Source: Candidatus Nitrospira nitrosa
GTDB taxonomy: Bacteria > Nitrospirota > Nitrospiria > Nitrospirales > Nitrospiraceae
Assembly (NCBI RefSeq): GCF_001458735.1
Contig: NZ_CZQA01000009.1
Location: forward strand, 124,001-188,000
Reading direction: 5' to 3'
Length of the DNA: 64,000 nucleotides
Shown here one piece after another: positions 40,260 to 45,105 of this stretch (positions are counted from its first letter, which is position 1; every line of letters begins with the position of its first letter). The position numbers and the translations under genes were made by a program. The notes under the pieces are model-generated. The model was not told the DNA's origin. It ran no database searches and saw only the letters and a list, made by a program, of their open reading frames with translations.

Positions 40260-40487
40260 AATGCCTAGATAGCCGAGCGATGGCTGCTCTCCTCCTCATC
40301 GATGGTCGTCCTTCTTACACCTCGACAGACTCCCTAACCTTCTCATAGGATCCGATAAAGAGAGCTGCCCTCAATACATCACATCACGGTCAAAAACTCA
40401 TTTTCAGATCCAGATCCCATATCTCGTGCCTTCGAGATGCAAGGACGCACACTTCGAAGTCGTCCCCTTGTGACTACTGACATTTCT
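40260..40487. other. Non-coding stretch before the MITE-like repeat
   Basis: About 230 bases with no coding frame. No terminator with a U-run was seen after the oxygenase gene. Together with the repeat and riboswitch leader it makes a 600-base non-coding gap. Confidence 0.4.
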
Positions 40488-40622
40488 AACAGTCTGCTGA
40501 AAAACTTAACCTGTGTGCTTCGAGAAGCTTAGTACGAACGGGAAACCCTCATAGTTTCAATGCTCTTCTCGCTCATCCTGAGGCTCTCGAAGGATGAGTA
40601 GAGGGTTTTTCAGCAGGCTGCT
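40488..40622. repeat. MITE-like element with terminal inverted repeats
   Basis: A 135-base segment is bounded by near-perfect 18-base inverted ends: AACAGTCTGCTGAAAAAC at 40488-40505 and GTTTTTCAGCAGGCTGCT at 40605-40622 (two mismatches). Inside is a smaller dyad (CTCATCCTGAG..CTCTCGAAGGATGAG). No coding capacity. The size and ends match non-autonomous miniature transposable elements common in environmental bacteria. It ends 31 bases before the -35 of the guanidine riboswitch promoter. Confidence 0.8.
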
Positions 40623-40652
40623 ACAGTGGATTGATGGACTCAAGACGCAACC

Positions 40653-40681: not shown

Positions 40682-40703
40682 CCGAAAACAATGTTCCAAA
40701 AGG

Positions 40704-40806
40704 AAAACTAGGGTTCCGGCTTCCTTCCTTATCGGATGGAGCGACTGGTCCAAGAGTTTTCGGCCTCGCTAACGAGGCTCCACGGAGGGATAAAAGCCCG
40801 GGAGAT
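40704..40806 (+). promoter_or_regulatory. Guanidine-I riboswitch (ykkC RNA, subtype 1)
   Basis: The three conserved blocks of ykkC RNA occur in order: ACTAGGGTTCCG at 40708-40719, ACTGGTCCAAGAG at 40743-40755, and ACGGAGGGATAAAAGCCCGG followed by GAGA at 40782-40805. The middle region can form GCCTCG-CTAA-CGAGGC (40763-40778) as a hairpin. Subtype 1 senses guanidinium and turns on exporters, carboxylases or hydrolases. Here the downstream genes are a permease and a guanidinase-like ureohydrolase, which fits guanidine better than the ppGpp or PRPP variants. A terminator-like hairpin follows at once. Confidence 0.93.
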
Positions 40807-40831
40807 CATGTACGCAGGTACGTGGCCTTTT
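40807..40831 (+). terminator. Expression-platform terminator of the riboswitch
   Basis: CATGTAC-GCAG-GTACGTG (40807-40824) forms a 7-bp stem with one G-U pair, followed by GCC and four U at 40828-40831. It begins directly after the conserved 3' part of the aptamer. It would terminate without ligand and be disfavoured when the aptamer is ligand-stabilised. The stem is short, so strength is uncertain. Confidence 0.55.
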
Positions 40832-40863
40832 GGGAATCACACCCTTCACGAGGAGGCTTCGTT

Positions 40864-40941
40864 ATGCAACTTCATCCCAACTTCCATTCCGTAACGGATC
40901 AGTCAGACCTGCTGCCGAGCCGTGGCAGTTTGTCATGGTAA
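40864..40941 (+). CDS. Possible leader peptide upstream of the permease
   Basis: A 25-codon frame has the best ribosome-binding site in the leader: GAGGAGG at 40850-40856, seven bases before its ATG. Its TAA overlaps the permease start in an ATGGTAA arrangement (permease ATG at 40935, stop 40939-40941). The permease frame itself has no start codon positioned for this site. The peptide (begins MQLHPNFHSV, ends GSLSW) matches nothing I know; its likely role is translational coupling. Confidence 0.5.
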   Translation: MQLHPNFHSVTDQSDLLPSRGSLSW

Positions 40942-42401
40942 ATCACGAAATTCCGGATAACGATTCTTCTGCGACGGCGACCAGTACCTCCGAGACGCTT
41001 CAGCGCAGTCTGACGCTCTGGAACAGTTTGACCATCGGCTTCGCCACGGTCTCACCAGTGGCAGGGCTTTATGCCATCATCGGCGTACAGACAGTTGTAA
41101 CGGGGGGCGGTTGGTTTCCCGCACTGGCACTCTGCTTGGTGATGCAGTTGTTGGTCGCCACGGTGTATGCGGAGTTGTCCTCGCAAATTCCTATCGCAGG
41201 AGGTGCCTACAAATGGGCACGACAGCTCGGAGGCACCATCACCGGCACCTATGCCGGAGCCATCTACGTCAGTTCCACGATCGCCATGCTCACCACGACC
41301 GCCTATACCGGCGGGGTCTGGCTGGCGATTTTCTTCGGATCGGGAGGCGGAACAACAGGTGTGTCTCTGGTCATCTGGGGCGCGGTGTTCCTGTTGGTCT
41401 GCACCATCCTCAACCTCATCCACGTCTCGGTCTTCAAGTTCCTCATCTCCCTAGGCGTCTATGCGGAAATCATCGGTTCATTCGGCGTCGCACTCTTGCT
41501 GTTCTTCTTTTTCCGGCAGCACGACTTTTCCGAACTGTACGCCCATCTGGGGACAGGAACGGCTCCAAGTCAGACCGCGGCGTTTCTGGCTGCGCTTGCC
41601 ATTTCCGGTTGGGCCTTCATCGGGTTCGATGCCTGCTCGACCATTGCCGAAGAAACGCACGAACCGAAACGGATGGTGCCACGGGCGATCTTTCTCTCGC
41701 TCTGTATGGTGGGGAGCGTCGTGCTCTTCAACTCTGCCGCCCTGACCCTCAGCTTCAACCGTGAGACGTTACAGCAGACAAGTGCGGTATCCGATCCTGT
41801 CACGCCAGTGATCGTCGCCAACTTTGGAGCGTGGGCGGAGACGCCTTTTCTGGCGATCGTCATGATCGCATTCCTGGCCTGCGGATCTTCGATGGTGCAG
41901 TACACCTCCAGGATTGTGTTCTCCATGGCGCGCGAAGGGAGTATGCCGGCCGTCCTCAGTCGGGTCACCTCAGCCGGAGCTCCGCATAATGCCGTGCTGT
42001 CCACGGTTCTCCTGGCCACGCTGGGATTGCTCTTCGGACTGAATGATGAAGCGGTCGCCACGGTCTTGGCATTTGGGACCGGCGGGTTGTACGCCATGTT
42101 TGCGATGACGACCGGCGTGGGACTCTACACCCGCGTCACAGGACGCTGGGATCCCTCATTGGGCGAATTGAAACTGGGTACATGGGGATTACTGATCAAT
42201 ATCGCCGCGTTCCTCTGGTCGCTGTTTGAATTCCTGAACATCGCCTGGCCACGTCCCTATGCCACCTCGCCCAATGCCCCTTGGTGGCAACTCTGGGCGG
42301 TCCCGCTCGTCCTGGGCAGCATACTCACAGTGACGACGCTCTATATCTTTATTGGTAGGAACGAGGCATCAGCCCATCCAGAAAAGGCCAAGCCCGGGTA
42401 A
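40935..42401 (+). CDS. APC-family amino acid/polyamine-type permease, probable guanidine importer
   Basis: This 488-residue protein has about twelve membrane segments and the APC signatures GFATVSPVAGLYAIIG near residue 25, AELSSQIPIAGGAYKWARQL near 75 and GFDACSTIAEETHEPKRMVPRAI near 230. APC permeases import amino acids or cations. Being directly downstream of a guanidine riboswitch and before a guanidinase-like gene, it most likely takes up guanidinium; this is inference. The frame opens further upstream but the ATG at 40935 gives a normal N-terminus coupled to the leader ORF. Confidence 0.9.
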   Translation: MVNHEIPDNDSSATATSTSETLQRSLTLWNSLTIGFATVSPVAGLYAIIGVQTVVTGGGWFPALALCLVMQLLVATVYAELSSQIPIAGGAYKWARQLGGTITGTYAGAIYVSSTIAMLTTTAYTGGVWLAIFFGSGGGTTGVSLVIWGAVFLLVCTILNLIHVSVFKFLISLGVYAEIIGSFGVALLLFFFFRQHDFSELYAHLGTGTAPSQTAAFLAALAISGWAFIGFDACSTIAEETHEPKRMVPRAIFLSLCMVGSVVLFNSAALTLSFNRETLQQTSAVSDPVTPVIVANFGAWAETPFLAIVMIAFLACGSSMVQYTSRIVFSMAREGSMPAVLSRVTSAGAPHNAVLSTVLLATLGLLFGLNDEAVATVLAFGTGGLYAMFAMTTGVGLYTRVTGRWDPSLGELKLGTWGLLINIAAFLWSLFEFLNIAWPRPYATSPNAPWWQLWAVPLVLGSILTVTTLYIFIGRNEASAHPEKAKPG

Positions 42402-42491: not shown

Positions 42492-43640
42492 ATGGCAAAG
42501 AAGAAAACGTATCAAGGCAAGGTTCCTCTCCATGACAACTACGGGCCGGAGGCGAAGTTCGCCGTGGAAGCGGAGGCACTGCTGCCGACCACGAAATATG
42601 AAGAAGAAGTCGCCCGAGGTCTTGAATTAGGCCTGCCCGGGGCTGATTCCATCAAAGATCGCCGCATTCCCACTTTCAGTCGCGGAGAGCTTCCCCACTT
42701 TGCCGGCATCAATACCTTCACCAAAGCGCCCTATGTCGAGGATGTCCGCAAGTGCGGGGGCTACGATGTCGCCATTCTTGGAGCGCCGTTCGACGGTGGA
42801 ACCACCTATCGGGCAGGCACCCGATTCGGCCCCCAAGGCATCCGCAAAATCTCGGCCTTATACGGTACCTATAGCTTCGAGCTTGGGGTGGATCTCCGGG
42901 AGTCGATCTCCATGTGCGATCTCGGCGATGTGTTTACCATTCCCGGCAATATCGAGAAGACCTTCGACCAAGTCAGTAAGGGCGTGGGGCATGTCTATGC
43001 CAGTGGGGCCTTTCCCGTAGTGTTGGGTGGAGACCATTCTCTGGGATTCGCGACCGTGCGAGGCGTGGCGCAGAATATGGGCGGCAAGAAACTCGGTATC
43101 CTTCACTTCGATCGGCACGTCGATACCCAGGAGACCGATCTCGACGAGCGGATGCACACCACCCCCTGGTTTCATGCGACGAATATTCCCAACGTGCCGG
43201 CGAAGAATCTCGTCCAGATCGGCATCGGCGGCTGGCAAGCGCCACGGCCCGGCGTGAAGTCCGGCCGTGAACGTCAAACGAGCATCATGACCGTGACCGA
43301 CTGTGTGGAAATGGGCATCGAGAATGCCGCAAAGCAGGCCCTCGAAGTCGCGTTTAATGGTGTTGATGCGGTGTGGTTGAGTTTCGATGTCGATTGCTTG
43401 GACGCCGCCTTTGTGCCCGGCACCGGTTGGCCGGAGCCGGGCGGCTTTCTCCCGCGTGAAGTGTTGAAGTTTCTCCAGATCATCGCCGACACGAAACCCC
43501 TGGCGGGGATGGAAATCGTGGAATGCTCCCCGCCTTACGACGCGGCAGAGATTACGAGCCTCATGGCCACCAGGGTGATTTGTGATGTCTTGGCTTGCCA
43601 AGTGCGATCAGGCCATCTGGCTAATCGCAAGAAGCGTTAA
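42492..43640 (+). CDS. gdmH: Ureohydrolase family, probable Ni-dependent guanidine hydrolase
   Basis: This 382-residue arginase/agmatinase-fold protein has a long N-terminal extension of about 85 residues. The metal ligands are present: His182 in GGDHS, Asp207, His209 and Asp211 in HFDRHVD, Asp299 and Asp301 in SFDVDCLD. HFDRHVD has Arg where agmatinases usually have Ala. The segment PGTGWPEPGG puts Trp at residue 313, where I recall a conserved Trp distinguishing guanidine hydrolases. Hydrolysis of guanidine gives ammonium and urea. The riboswitch upstream supports this over agmatinase. AAGGAG lies six bases before the ATG. The HypA/HypB-like nickel chaperones known to serve GdmH are not in the window. 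Confidence 0.88.
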   Translation: MAKKKTYQGKVPLHDNYGPEAKFAVEAEALLPTTKYEEEVARGLELGLPGADSIKDRRIPTFSRGELPHFAGINTFTKAPYVEDVRKCGGYDVAILGAPFDGGTTYRAGTRFGPQGIRKISALYGTYSFELGVDLRESISMCDLGDVFTIPGNIEKTFDQVSKGVGHVYASGAFPVVLGGDHSLGFATVRGVAQNMGGKKLGILHFDRHVDTQETDLDERMHTTPWFHATNIPNVPAKNLVQIGIGGWQAPRPGVKSGRERQTSIMTVTDCVEMGIENAAKQALEVAFNGVDAVWLSFDVDCLDAAFVPGTGWPEPGGFLPREVLKFLQIIADTKPLAGMEIVECSPPYDAAEITSLMATRVICDVLACQVRSGHLANRKKR

Positions 43641-43906: not shown

Positions 43907-43978
43907 CGGACAGTGTGATAAGTGGGAGCCTGGCTTCACCAACGCCACCGGAAGGTGGCGACACAAAGGAGCGAGGCA

Positions 43979-44278
43979 ATGAAACGCACGAGACGGAATC
44001 ACGGAGCCACCTTTAAAGCACAGGTGGCGTTGGCCGCGGTCAAAGGGGATAAGACCCTGGCCGAATTGGCCGAGCAATTCAGCGTCCACCCCACCCAGAT
44101 CACAGAATGGAAACAGCAGTTGCTGGCGCGAGCCTCGGACGTATTTGGTGGGACGAAACCATCAGCGGAGGCTCCGGATCTCAAGACCCTGCACGCGAAG
44201 ATCGGGCAACTGACCTTGGAGAATGATTTTTTAGAAGGCGCGCTCACCAAGGCCGGCTTGCTGAGCGCAAAGCGATGA
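43979..44278 (+). CDS. IS3-family transposase OrfA (HTH protein)
   Basis: This 99-residue protein begins with a helix-turn-helix typical of IS3 OrfA ([26 protein letters not shown] then [16 protein letters not shown]), followed by a leucine-zipper-like helix ([19 protein letters not shown]). It binds the IS ends. It overlaps orfB by four bases (ATGA), so OrfB is made by reinitiation or frameshifting. Confidence 0.92.
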
Positions 44279-45105
44279 TCGATCGCACGCATCCCTTGCC
44301 GGTTGTGCGGCAATGCCAACTCCTGCAGCTGGCCCGCTCGACCGCCTATTACCAGCTGACGCCGACCTCCGAGACGACGCTGGCGTTGATGCGGCGGATT
44401 GACGAGCTGCATCTGAACTATCCCTTTGCCGGGGCTCGGATGCTGCGCGATCTGTTACAGCAGGAGGGCCATGCCATTGGGCGACGCCAGGTGGTCACCC
44501 TCATGCGCAGGATGGGGATTGAGGCGCTGTATCGGAAACCGCATCTGAGTCGGCGGCATCCGGCCCACACCATCTACCCGTATCTCCTCCGTGATCTCAC
44601 GATCTGTCGTCCCAATCATGTCTGGGCGGCCGATATCACCTATATTCCGATGCGACGCGGCTTCGTGTATCTCTTCGCTATCTTGGACTGGGCCAGTCGC
44701 CGAGTGTTGGCTTGGCGGCTCTCCAATACGTTGACCACGGACTTCTGTCTCGACGCCGTGCGAGAGGCGATCACGCAGCATGGCTGCCCCGAGATCTTCA
44801 ACACGGATCAAGGGTGCCAGTTCACCAGCCAGGAGTTCACGGGACTCTTGAAAGACCACGGCATTCAGATCAGCATGGACGGCAAAGGCTGCTGGCGGGA
44901 TAACGTCTTCGTGGAACGGTTGTGGAGAAGCCTGAAATATGAGGAGGTCTATTTGCACGCGTATGACACGGTCAGCACTGCCTATCAGGGGCTGGAGCGC
45001 TATCTGCTGTTCTACAACCAGACCCGACCGCATCAGGCGCTTGATGGCCAGACGCCCGACCAGGTCTATTATGACAATCTGACCACACGACGGACTGCCG
45101 CGTAG
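44275..45105 (+). CDS. IS3-family transposase OrfB (DDE integrase)
   Basis: This 276-residue protein has an HTH_21 region (FAGARMLRDLLQQEGHAIGRRQVVTLMRRMGI split around 47-82) and the rve integrase core with the DDE triad in VWAADITYIP, FNTDQGCQFTS and DNVFVERLWRSLKYEEVY. It catalyses transposition. The length is normal and there is no stop. Confidence 0.95.
   Translation: MIDRTHPLPVVRQCQLLQLARSTAYYQLTPTSETTLALMRRIDELHLNYPFAGARMLRDLLQQEGHAIGRRQVVTLMRRMGIEALYRKPHLSRRHPAHTIYPYLLRDLTICRPNHVWAADITYIPMRRGFVYLFAILDWASRRVLAWRLSNTLTTDFCLDAVREAITQHGCPEIFNTDQGCQFTSQEFTGLLKDHGIQISMDGKGCWRDNVFVERLWRSLKYEEVYLHAYDTVSTAYQGLERYLLFYNQTRPHQALDGQTPDQVYYDNLTTRRTAA

Follow-up and report, generated by a model that had tools for sequence, protein, structure and literature searches.

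The DNA analyzed here, a stretch of 64,000 nt referred to as the window, contains a guanidine-I riboswitch followed by a short leader ORF, a permease gene, and an arginase-family gene, all on the forward strand. The features that matter for the arguments below are:

40697..40806, + strand: guanidine-I riboswitch aptamer (RF00442; cmscan 87.7 bits, gathering score 63, E = 2.4e-14)
40770..40781, + strand: UAACGAGGCUCC, the candidate anti-start strand, made up of the aptamer P2 loop and 3' strand (complementarity to the leader Shine-Dalgarno and start, compensatory changes, folding)
40784..40789, + strand: P3 5' strand GGAGGG, partner of CCCUUC at 40842-40847 in the predicted ligand-free fold (minimum free energy, RNAalifold)
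40797..40834, + strand: predicted anti-aptamer hairpin CCCGGGAG-A-UCAUGUAC / GUACGUGG-C-CUUUUGGG (minimum free energy), mutually exclusive with P3
40850..40856, + strand: leader Shine-Dalgarno GAGGAGG (from the sequence; −11.3 kcal/mol with the 16S tail)
40852..40866, + strand: conserved start region GGAGGCUUCGUUAUG, proposed target of the P2 strand (near-invariant columns)
40864..40941, + strand: leader ORF of 25 codons (MQLHPNFHSVTDQSDLLPSRGSLSW) plus TAA (from the sequence; architecture conserved)
40906..40934, + strand: predicted hairpin adjoining the permease ATG (−13.4 kcal/mol in the window)
40935..42401, + strand: APC-superfamily permease, predicted guanidine importer (AA_permease_2, E = 4.4e-35; comammox locus as described in PMC11410670)
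42492..43640, + strand: arginase-family enzyme, probable guanidinase (Arginase Pfam, E = 2e-75)

In sequence and structure alike, the aptamer clears the RF00442 gathering threshold, with guanidine binding itself being predicted. The arginase-family gene at 42492..43640 is probably a guanidinase, a name given by position, as in the operon described in PMC11410670. The window belongs to a 4.42-Mb Nitrospira-related genome whose named relatives are mostly metagenome-assembled genomes labeled Nitrospira sp. This genome has two ammonia-monooxygenase (PF02461) genes and is therefore probably that of a complete ammonia oxidizer.

The leader ATG (40864-40866) follows GAGGAGG (40850-40856) after a gap of 7 nt, and the leader stop codon, TAA (40939-40941), overlaps the permease ATG (40935-40937) within the shared stretch ATGGTAA. 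A first-pass annotation of the window had described exactly this arrangement, and direct reading confirms it. The same annotation held that the leader has the only strong ribosome site; this is true of the window genome, with predicted pairing to the 16S tail (taken as a 9-mer) of −11.3 kcal/mol for the leader site versus −4.0 kcal/mol for the permease site. Its claim that the permease lacks a good site holds for the window genome and fails for most relatives, where a GAGG-type site (about −7.7 kcal/mol with the 16S tail) appears to be buried in a hairpin. A permease start upstream in the same frame, which would have spoken against coupling, was also looked for: the permease frame is open upstream as far as a TTG at 40830, with no in-frame ATG, GTG, or TTG in the window from after that codon up to 40935.

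Comparison with other loci shows how general the arrangement is. Of the 175 genomes in the window's family, 49 carry RF00442, as do 101 of 125 in the family that contains Nitrosospira sp. Nsp11, the Nitrosomonadaceae. A total of 237 loci were fetched, from which 15 without the riboswitch motif, 1 that was too short, and 62 duplicate stretches were excluded. The 161 distinct riboswitch entries that were kept comprise 84 with a leader, 67 in which the riboswitch-proximal start is in frame with the permease, and 10 without a permease match. Final counts accept only ATG or GTG as leader starts (TTG is excluded), and one entry (L165) was retained although its chosen leader start has no ribosome site. 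Three weak riboswitch matches (G007:C16, G027, and G571:C269) fall below the family cut-off. In two entries (L024 and L090), the permease match is split into two pieces in different frames near codon 118, reflecting a broken gene or an assembly error.

There are 48 distinct riboswitch-permease loci in Nitrospira: 39 with a leader, 8 with an in-frame leader-permease fusion, and 1 without a leader start. The leaders are 23–30 codons long, and in all 39 the stop codon overlaps the permease start, ending at ATG +4, +7, +10, or +11. Four of these leaders have a frame shifted by an indel, and their stop codons still overlap the permease start. The fusions consist of a group of seven plus one further locus (L039), where the permease ATG has become ATC; this looks like a separate fusion event because of that change. 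At the single locus without a leader start (L022, G007:C42), riboswitch and permease are present, and the leader ribosome site and ATG are missing.

Could the overlap in the window have arisen by chance? In dinucleotide-preserving shuffles of the 71-nt window spacer, the leader stop overlaps the ATG anyway in 61% of cases, meaning that the window locus alone is no evidence and the relatives carry the argument. Among the ammonia oxidizers of the Betaproteobacteria, the permease itself occupies the riboswitch-proximal start in 58 entries and a leader does so in 45. Within each kind, most entries place this start about equally far from the aptamer. These leaders vary from 14 to 123 codons. Their stop codon overlaps the permease ATG in 17 of 45 and lies between −20 and +15 of the ATG in 28 of 45, versus 5.9 expected from dinucleotide shuffles; in the other 17 it is further away, as far as −95. 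One Nitrosomonas communis-like group has leaders of 63–90 codons with stops 29–95 nt ahead of the permease, and no hairpin there. Spacers were also clustered at 65% identity, with representatives chosen at random 300 times (an earlier version chose one by name). Among the resulting 17 clusters, the leader stop is within −20 to +15 nt in 13–17, versus 3.3 expected (largest P = 3e-10). The first-pass annotation had proposed that homologous loci lacking the ORF would refute coupling. Such loci do occur (the 58 direct starts in ammonia oxidizers, and 9 of 48 fused or leaderless loci in Nitrospira), and they point to a single conserved, riboswitch-controlled start at which a leader has been inserted or fused; they do not count against coupling where a leader exists.

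What is selected in the leader? The leader frame is open in 39/39 Nitrospira loci, and the other two frames are open in 12 and 31. For the 27 leaders of equal length, 6.6 stop-creating events would be expected in the leader frame, and no leader has a stop; for frames 1 and 2 of the same leaders, 6.5 and 4.7 events are expected, and stops are found in 21/27 and 3/27. The ratio of synonymous changes to expectation is 1.11 for the leader versus 3.12 for the permease core, indicating no protein-level conservation of the peptide. Permease codons 1–20 are unconstrained like the leader (0.98). Judged by these comparisons, what is kept in the leader is its start, its open frame, and the position of its stop, and it appears to be translation of the leader that matters rather than the peptide product.

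A further predicted element lies at the other end of the leader. In Nitrospira, a predicted hairpin ends at the permease ATG and encloses the GAGG-type permease site (mean −13.4 kcal/mol; mean z −1.53, with z below zero in 36/39). In the window, the arms of the hairpin (40906-40934) differ from those of its relatives, and the −13.4 kcal/mol is kept. Covariation of the hairpin is weak: in the relatives' register, 90.3% of cells are paired, and three pairs have changed on both sides. In the ammonia oxidizers, the predicted hairpin is seen at overlapping starts (z −0.60) and is missing from the others (z about 0.1; P = 0.008, uncorrected for kinship).

How might the riboswitch control the leader? 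In unconstrained folding, the P3 3' strand pairs with CUUUUGGG, the P3 5' strand pairs with CCCUUC, and the P2 loop and 3' strand pair with GGAGGCUUCGUUAUG. The last of these pairings would cover the leader's ribosome site as well as its start codon. When possible partners of the P2 14-mer within 300 nt are ranked, the start region falls in the top 2% for 131 of 150 entries (38/39, 8/9, 35/45, and 50/57 by group). This complementarity is found in 0 of 29 loci from other Pseudomonadota; these come from 30 loci taken from a longer list of matches, the thirtieth (L250) being the center genome, which had already been counted. At one of the loci in those other Pseudomonadota (L242), a 26-codon ORF lies 3' of the riboswitch, with its stop ~40 nt ahead of the ATG of the next gene. 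The idea of P2-start pairing was both conceived and tested on one set of sequences; the slid registers described below and the other Pseudomonadota serve as controls.

On a permease tree, 14 compensatory events map to the seven pairs that surround the start codon, versus 0–4 in six slid registers; the tree has 148 tips, with 2 of the 150 loci left out as too short. There were 53 breaking events as well, and some of the 14 compensatory events fall in an aberrant group (L133 and L202-L209) in which homology of the start is uncertain. Examples of compensation between P2 and the start include CAUAGC-GCUAUG (L021), CAUGGC-GCCAUG (L050), and CACGAC-GUCGUG (L096, where the start is GTG). When columns are shuffled, the number of paired cells beats all 2000 shuffles, but the same does not hold for double-changed pairs (477) or for pair types (616). 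The anti-aptamer hairpin is paired in 97.8% of cells over 39 sequences, with almost no double changes. Enforcing P2 and P3 together raises the unpaired probability of the start region from 0.16 to 0.44. An increase is seen at 36 of the 38 leader loci folded in Nitrospira (1 of the 39 has too little upstream sequence). Enforcing P3 alone does not free the leader site, and accessibility fell in 25/39 Nitrospira loci. P2 is a plain hairpin, and freeing of the leader site requires that it be enforced besides P3. Prediction and covariation suggest that the riboswitch acts on the start of the upstream ORF. The novel element here is the complementarity of the aptamer P2 loop and 3' strand to the leader's ribosome site and start codon, accompanied by compensatory changes.

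Guanidine-I riboswitches are usually transcriptional, according to accounts in PMC12186494 and PMC12508155, and the former, a review, describes an ON switch. The usual terminator platform, which is typical of the class rather than defining, is not seen in the window: a simple consensus scan from aptamer to permease found no convincing U-tract terminator after the aptamer. The two terminator-like matches are the leader-site and permease-start hairpins, with tails CTTCGTTATG and TTTGTCATGG. An intrinsic terminator was rejected as the expression platform since the scan gave only those two hairpins.

Taking together the observed anatomy, its conservation, the way the P2 strand covaries with the start, and the predicted folds, we put a probability of roughly 70% on a model in which the guanidine-I riboswitch controls translation of the short leader, and the leader passes the signal on to the permease. 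Without guanidine, the P3 and P2 strands would be engaged by three segments that follow one another downstream. In the outermost of these helices, the P2 loop and 3' strand would bind GGAGGCUUCGUUAUG and so hide the leader's ribosome site and start codon. Guanidine would stabilize P2 and P3, freeing the leader start. Ribosomes translating the leader would then open the hairpin around the permease start and terminate on it, and the same or the next ribosome would initiate the permease. The permease would therefore depend on translation of the leader, and the leader peptide would be disposable. The comparative evidence is best read as translational coupling, as the first-pass annotation proposed, and supports it well. 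That annotation also cast the leader as a second layer of control under the riboswitch; a role in control stands, but independence probably does not, since the P2 strand covaries with the leader start and the leader is probably a relay. A broader generalization, held less firmly and still with better than even confidence, is that in nitrifiers of two phyla the P2 loop and 3' strand serve as an anti-start strand acting on one fixed start, unlike the usual transcriptional type. This start would be filled by the permease, by a leader-fused permease, or by a disposable leader of 14–123 codons selected only for carrying ribosomes to the permease start.

There are several other ways to account for the leader. 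Its translation could protect the extended 5' stretch of the mRNA against Rho or RNases (polarity), with the permease initiating on its own. This is unlikely, although it would suit the Nitrosomonas communis-like leaders, with their 63–90 codons, stops 29–95 nt before the permease, and lack of a hairpin, as well as the rise in permease transcripts with guanidine reported for sludge (PMC11410670). A transcript rise would also be expected from transcriptional control or from coupled mRNA stability. Shielding leaves unexplained why the stop overlap persists across leaders of 23–123 codons and after frame changes, and why a hairpin is present at overlapping starts; moreover, the window spacer is a mere 71 nt. 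Slightly less probable still is that the permease initiates independently and the leader is a by-product of a riboswitch-controlled start followed by a stop-poor spacer. Given the start, overlap in the window is indeed likely by chance (0.61), and the relatives have a permease site of about −7.7 kcal/mol. Independent initiation is at odds with the spacer-cluster test (13–17 of 17 near the ATG versus 3.3 expected), with a permease site that is buried in predicted folds and weak in the window, and with the observation that leader identity is lost mostly through in-frame fusion to the permease.

The remaining explanations are all far less probable. A short leader preceding a nutrient gene is reminiscent of attenuators, in which the leader is an arrest or sensing peptide; however, there is no run of one residue, lengths range from 14 to 123 codons, and there is no terminator. 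This very improbable candidate was rejected since there is no constraint at the amino-acid level (synonymous changes at 1.11 of expected). Equally improbable is ribosomal frameshifting that fuses leader and permease into one protein. Eight Nitrospira loci are true in-frame fusions, the permease frame is open throughout the spacer in 31/39, and a minor frameshift fusion is described at the M. tuberculosis ppe2 overlap (PMC11260477), but four leaders are in another frame, such that the required shift would differ, and reinitiation fits the overlap with no need for frameshifting. The permease could also start upstream in its own frame, which is open back to 40830, and the in-frame fusions indicate that an N-terminal extension is tolerated. 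This is the least probable explanation of all: past the TTG at 40830, the window offers no in-frame ATG, GTG, or TTG before 40935. The synonymous test is uninformative on this point because permease codons 1–20 are as unconstrained as the leader (0.98).

Control by a riboswitch through a translated upstream ORF is a known principle; here it would involve a different riboswitch class and be conserved across two phyla. The nearest precedent is the B12 riboswitch of M. tuberculosis ppe2 with its upstream ORF, uPPE2. As outlined in PMC11260477, this translational riboswitch precedes a main gene that lacks a Shine-Dalgarno sequence and depends on uPPE2 translation by termination-reinitiation, as demonstrated experimentally. 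In both systems, the riboswitch leads into an upstream ORF with a stop codon that overlaps the main gene's start. The ppe2 system responds to B12, is an OFF switch, has an AUGA overlap, and has been shown experimentally in one organism, whereas the case described here rests on sequence and involves guanidine-I, a predicted ON switch, ATGGTAA-type overlaps, two phyla, and an aptamer strand that covaries with the leader start. Termination-reinitiation at overlapping genes, as presented in PMC6728339, is alike in its stop-start overlap and in tying downstream translation to upstream translation; there it is a general feature of operons, with no riboswitch, and the abstract names ATGA or TGATG overlaps. 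The SAM-II riboswitch of S. meliloti metA (PMC9373788) similarly controls a Shine-Dalgarno sequence, with the main protein starting 74 nt downstream, but this is an OFF switch with an in-frame AUG2, and the abstract mentions no separate leader with an overlapping stop. The guanidine-I riboswitch of comammox organisms and ammonia oxidizers in PMC11410670 is the same riboswitch, heading the same permease and guanidinase operon. The main text of that paper does not contain the terms "leader," "open reading frame," "Shine," "start codon," or "terminator," and its passages on the operon mention neither a leader ORF nor a ribosome site nor an expression platform. A search of titles and abstracts confined to the open-access literature likewise found no leader ORF at a guanidine-I riboswitch.

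If correct, the proposed relay from riboswitch to leader to permease would account for induction of guanidine use in comammox Nitrospira and in ammonia-oxidizing bacteria, and would add a second example, broad in phylogeny, of riboswitch control via a translated upstream ORF. The natural variants (direct start, fusion, short leader, and long leader) make the mechanism testable by leader swaps. A word of caution also follows for annotation: the codon at which a riboswitch acts may not be the start of the annotated gene.

The surroundings of these riboswitches have features of their own. In the window, IS3-type transposase genes (43922-45102) lie directly 3' of the probable guanidinase gene, and an inverted repeat (40487-40623) 5' of the riboswitch, with arms of 19 nt (89%) separated by 99 nt, may be a small mobile element. 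Elsewhere, guanidine-I riboswitches occur in divergent pairs, a few hundred bases from one another (G444:C70, G445:C17, G446:C9, G447:C139, and G461:C15).
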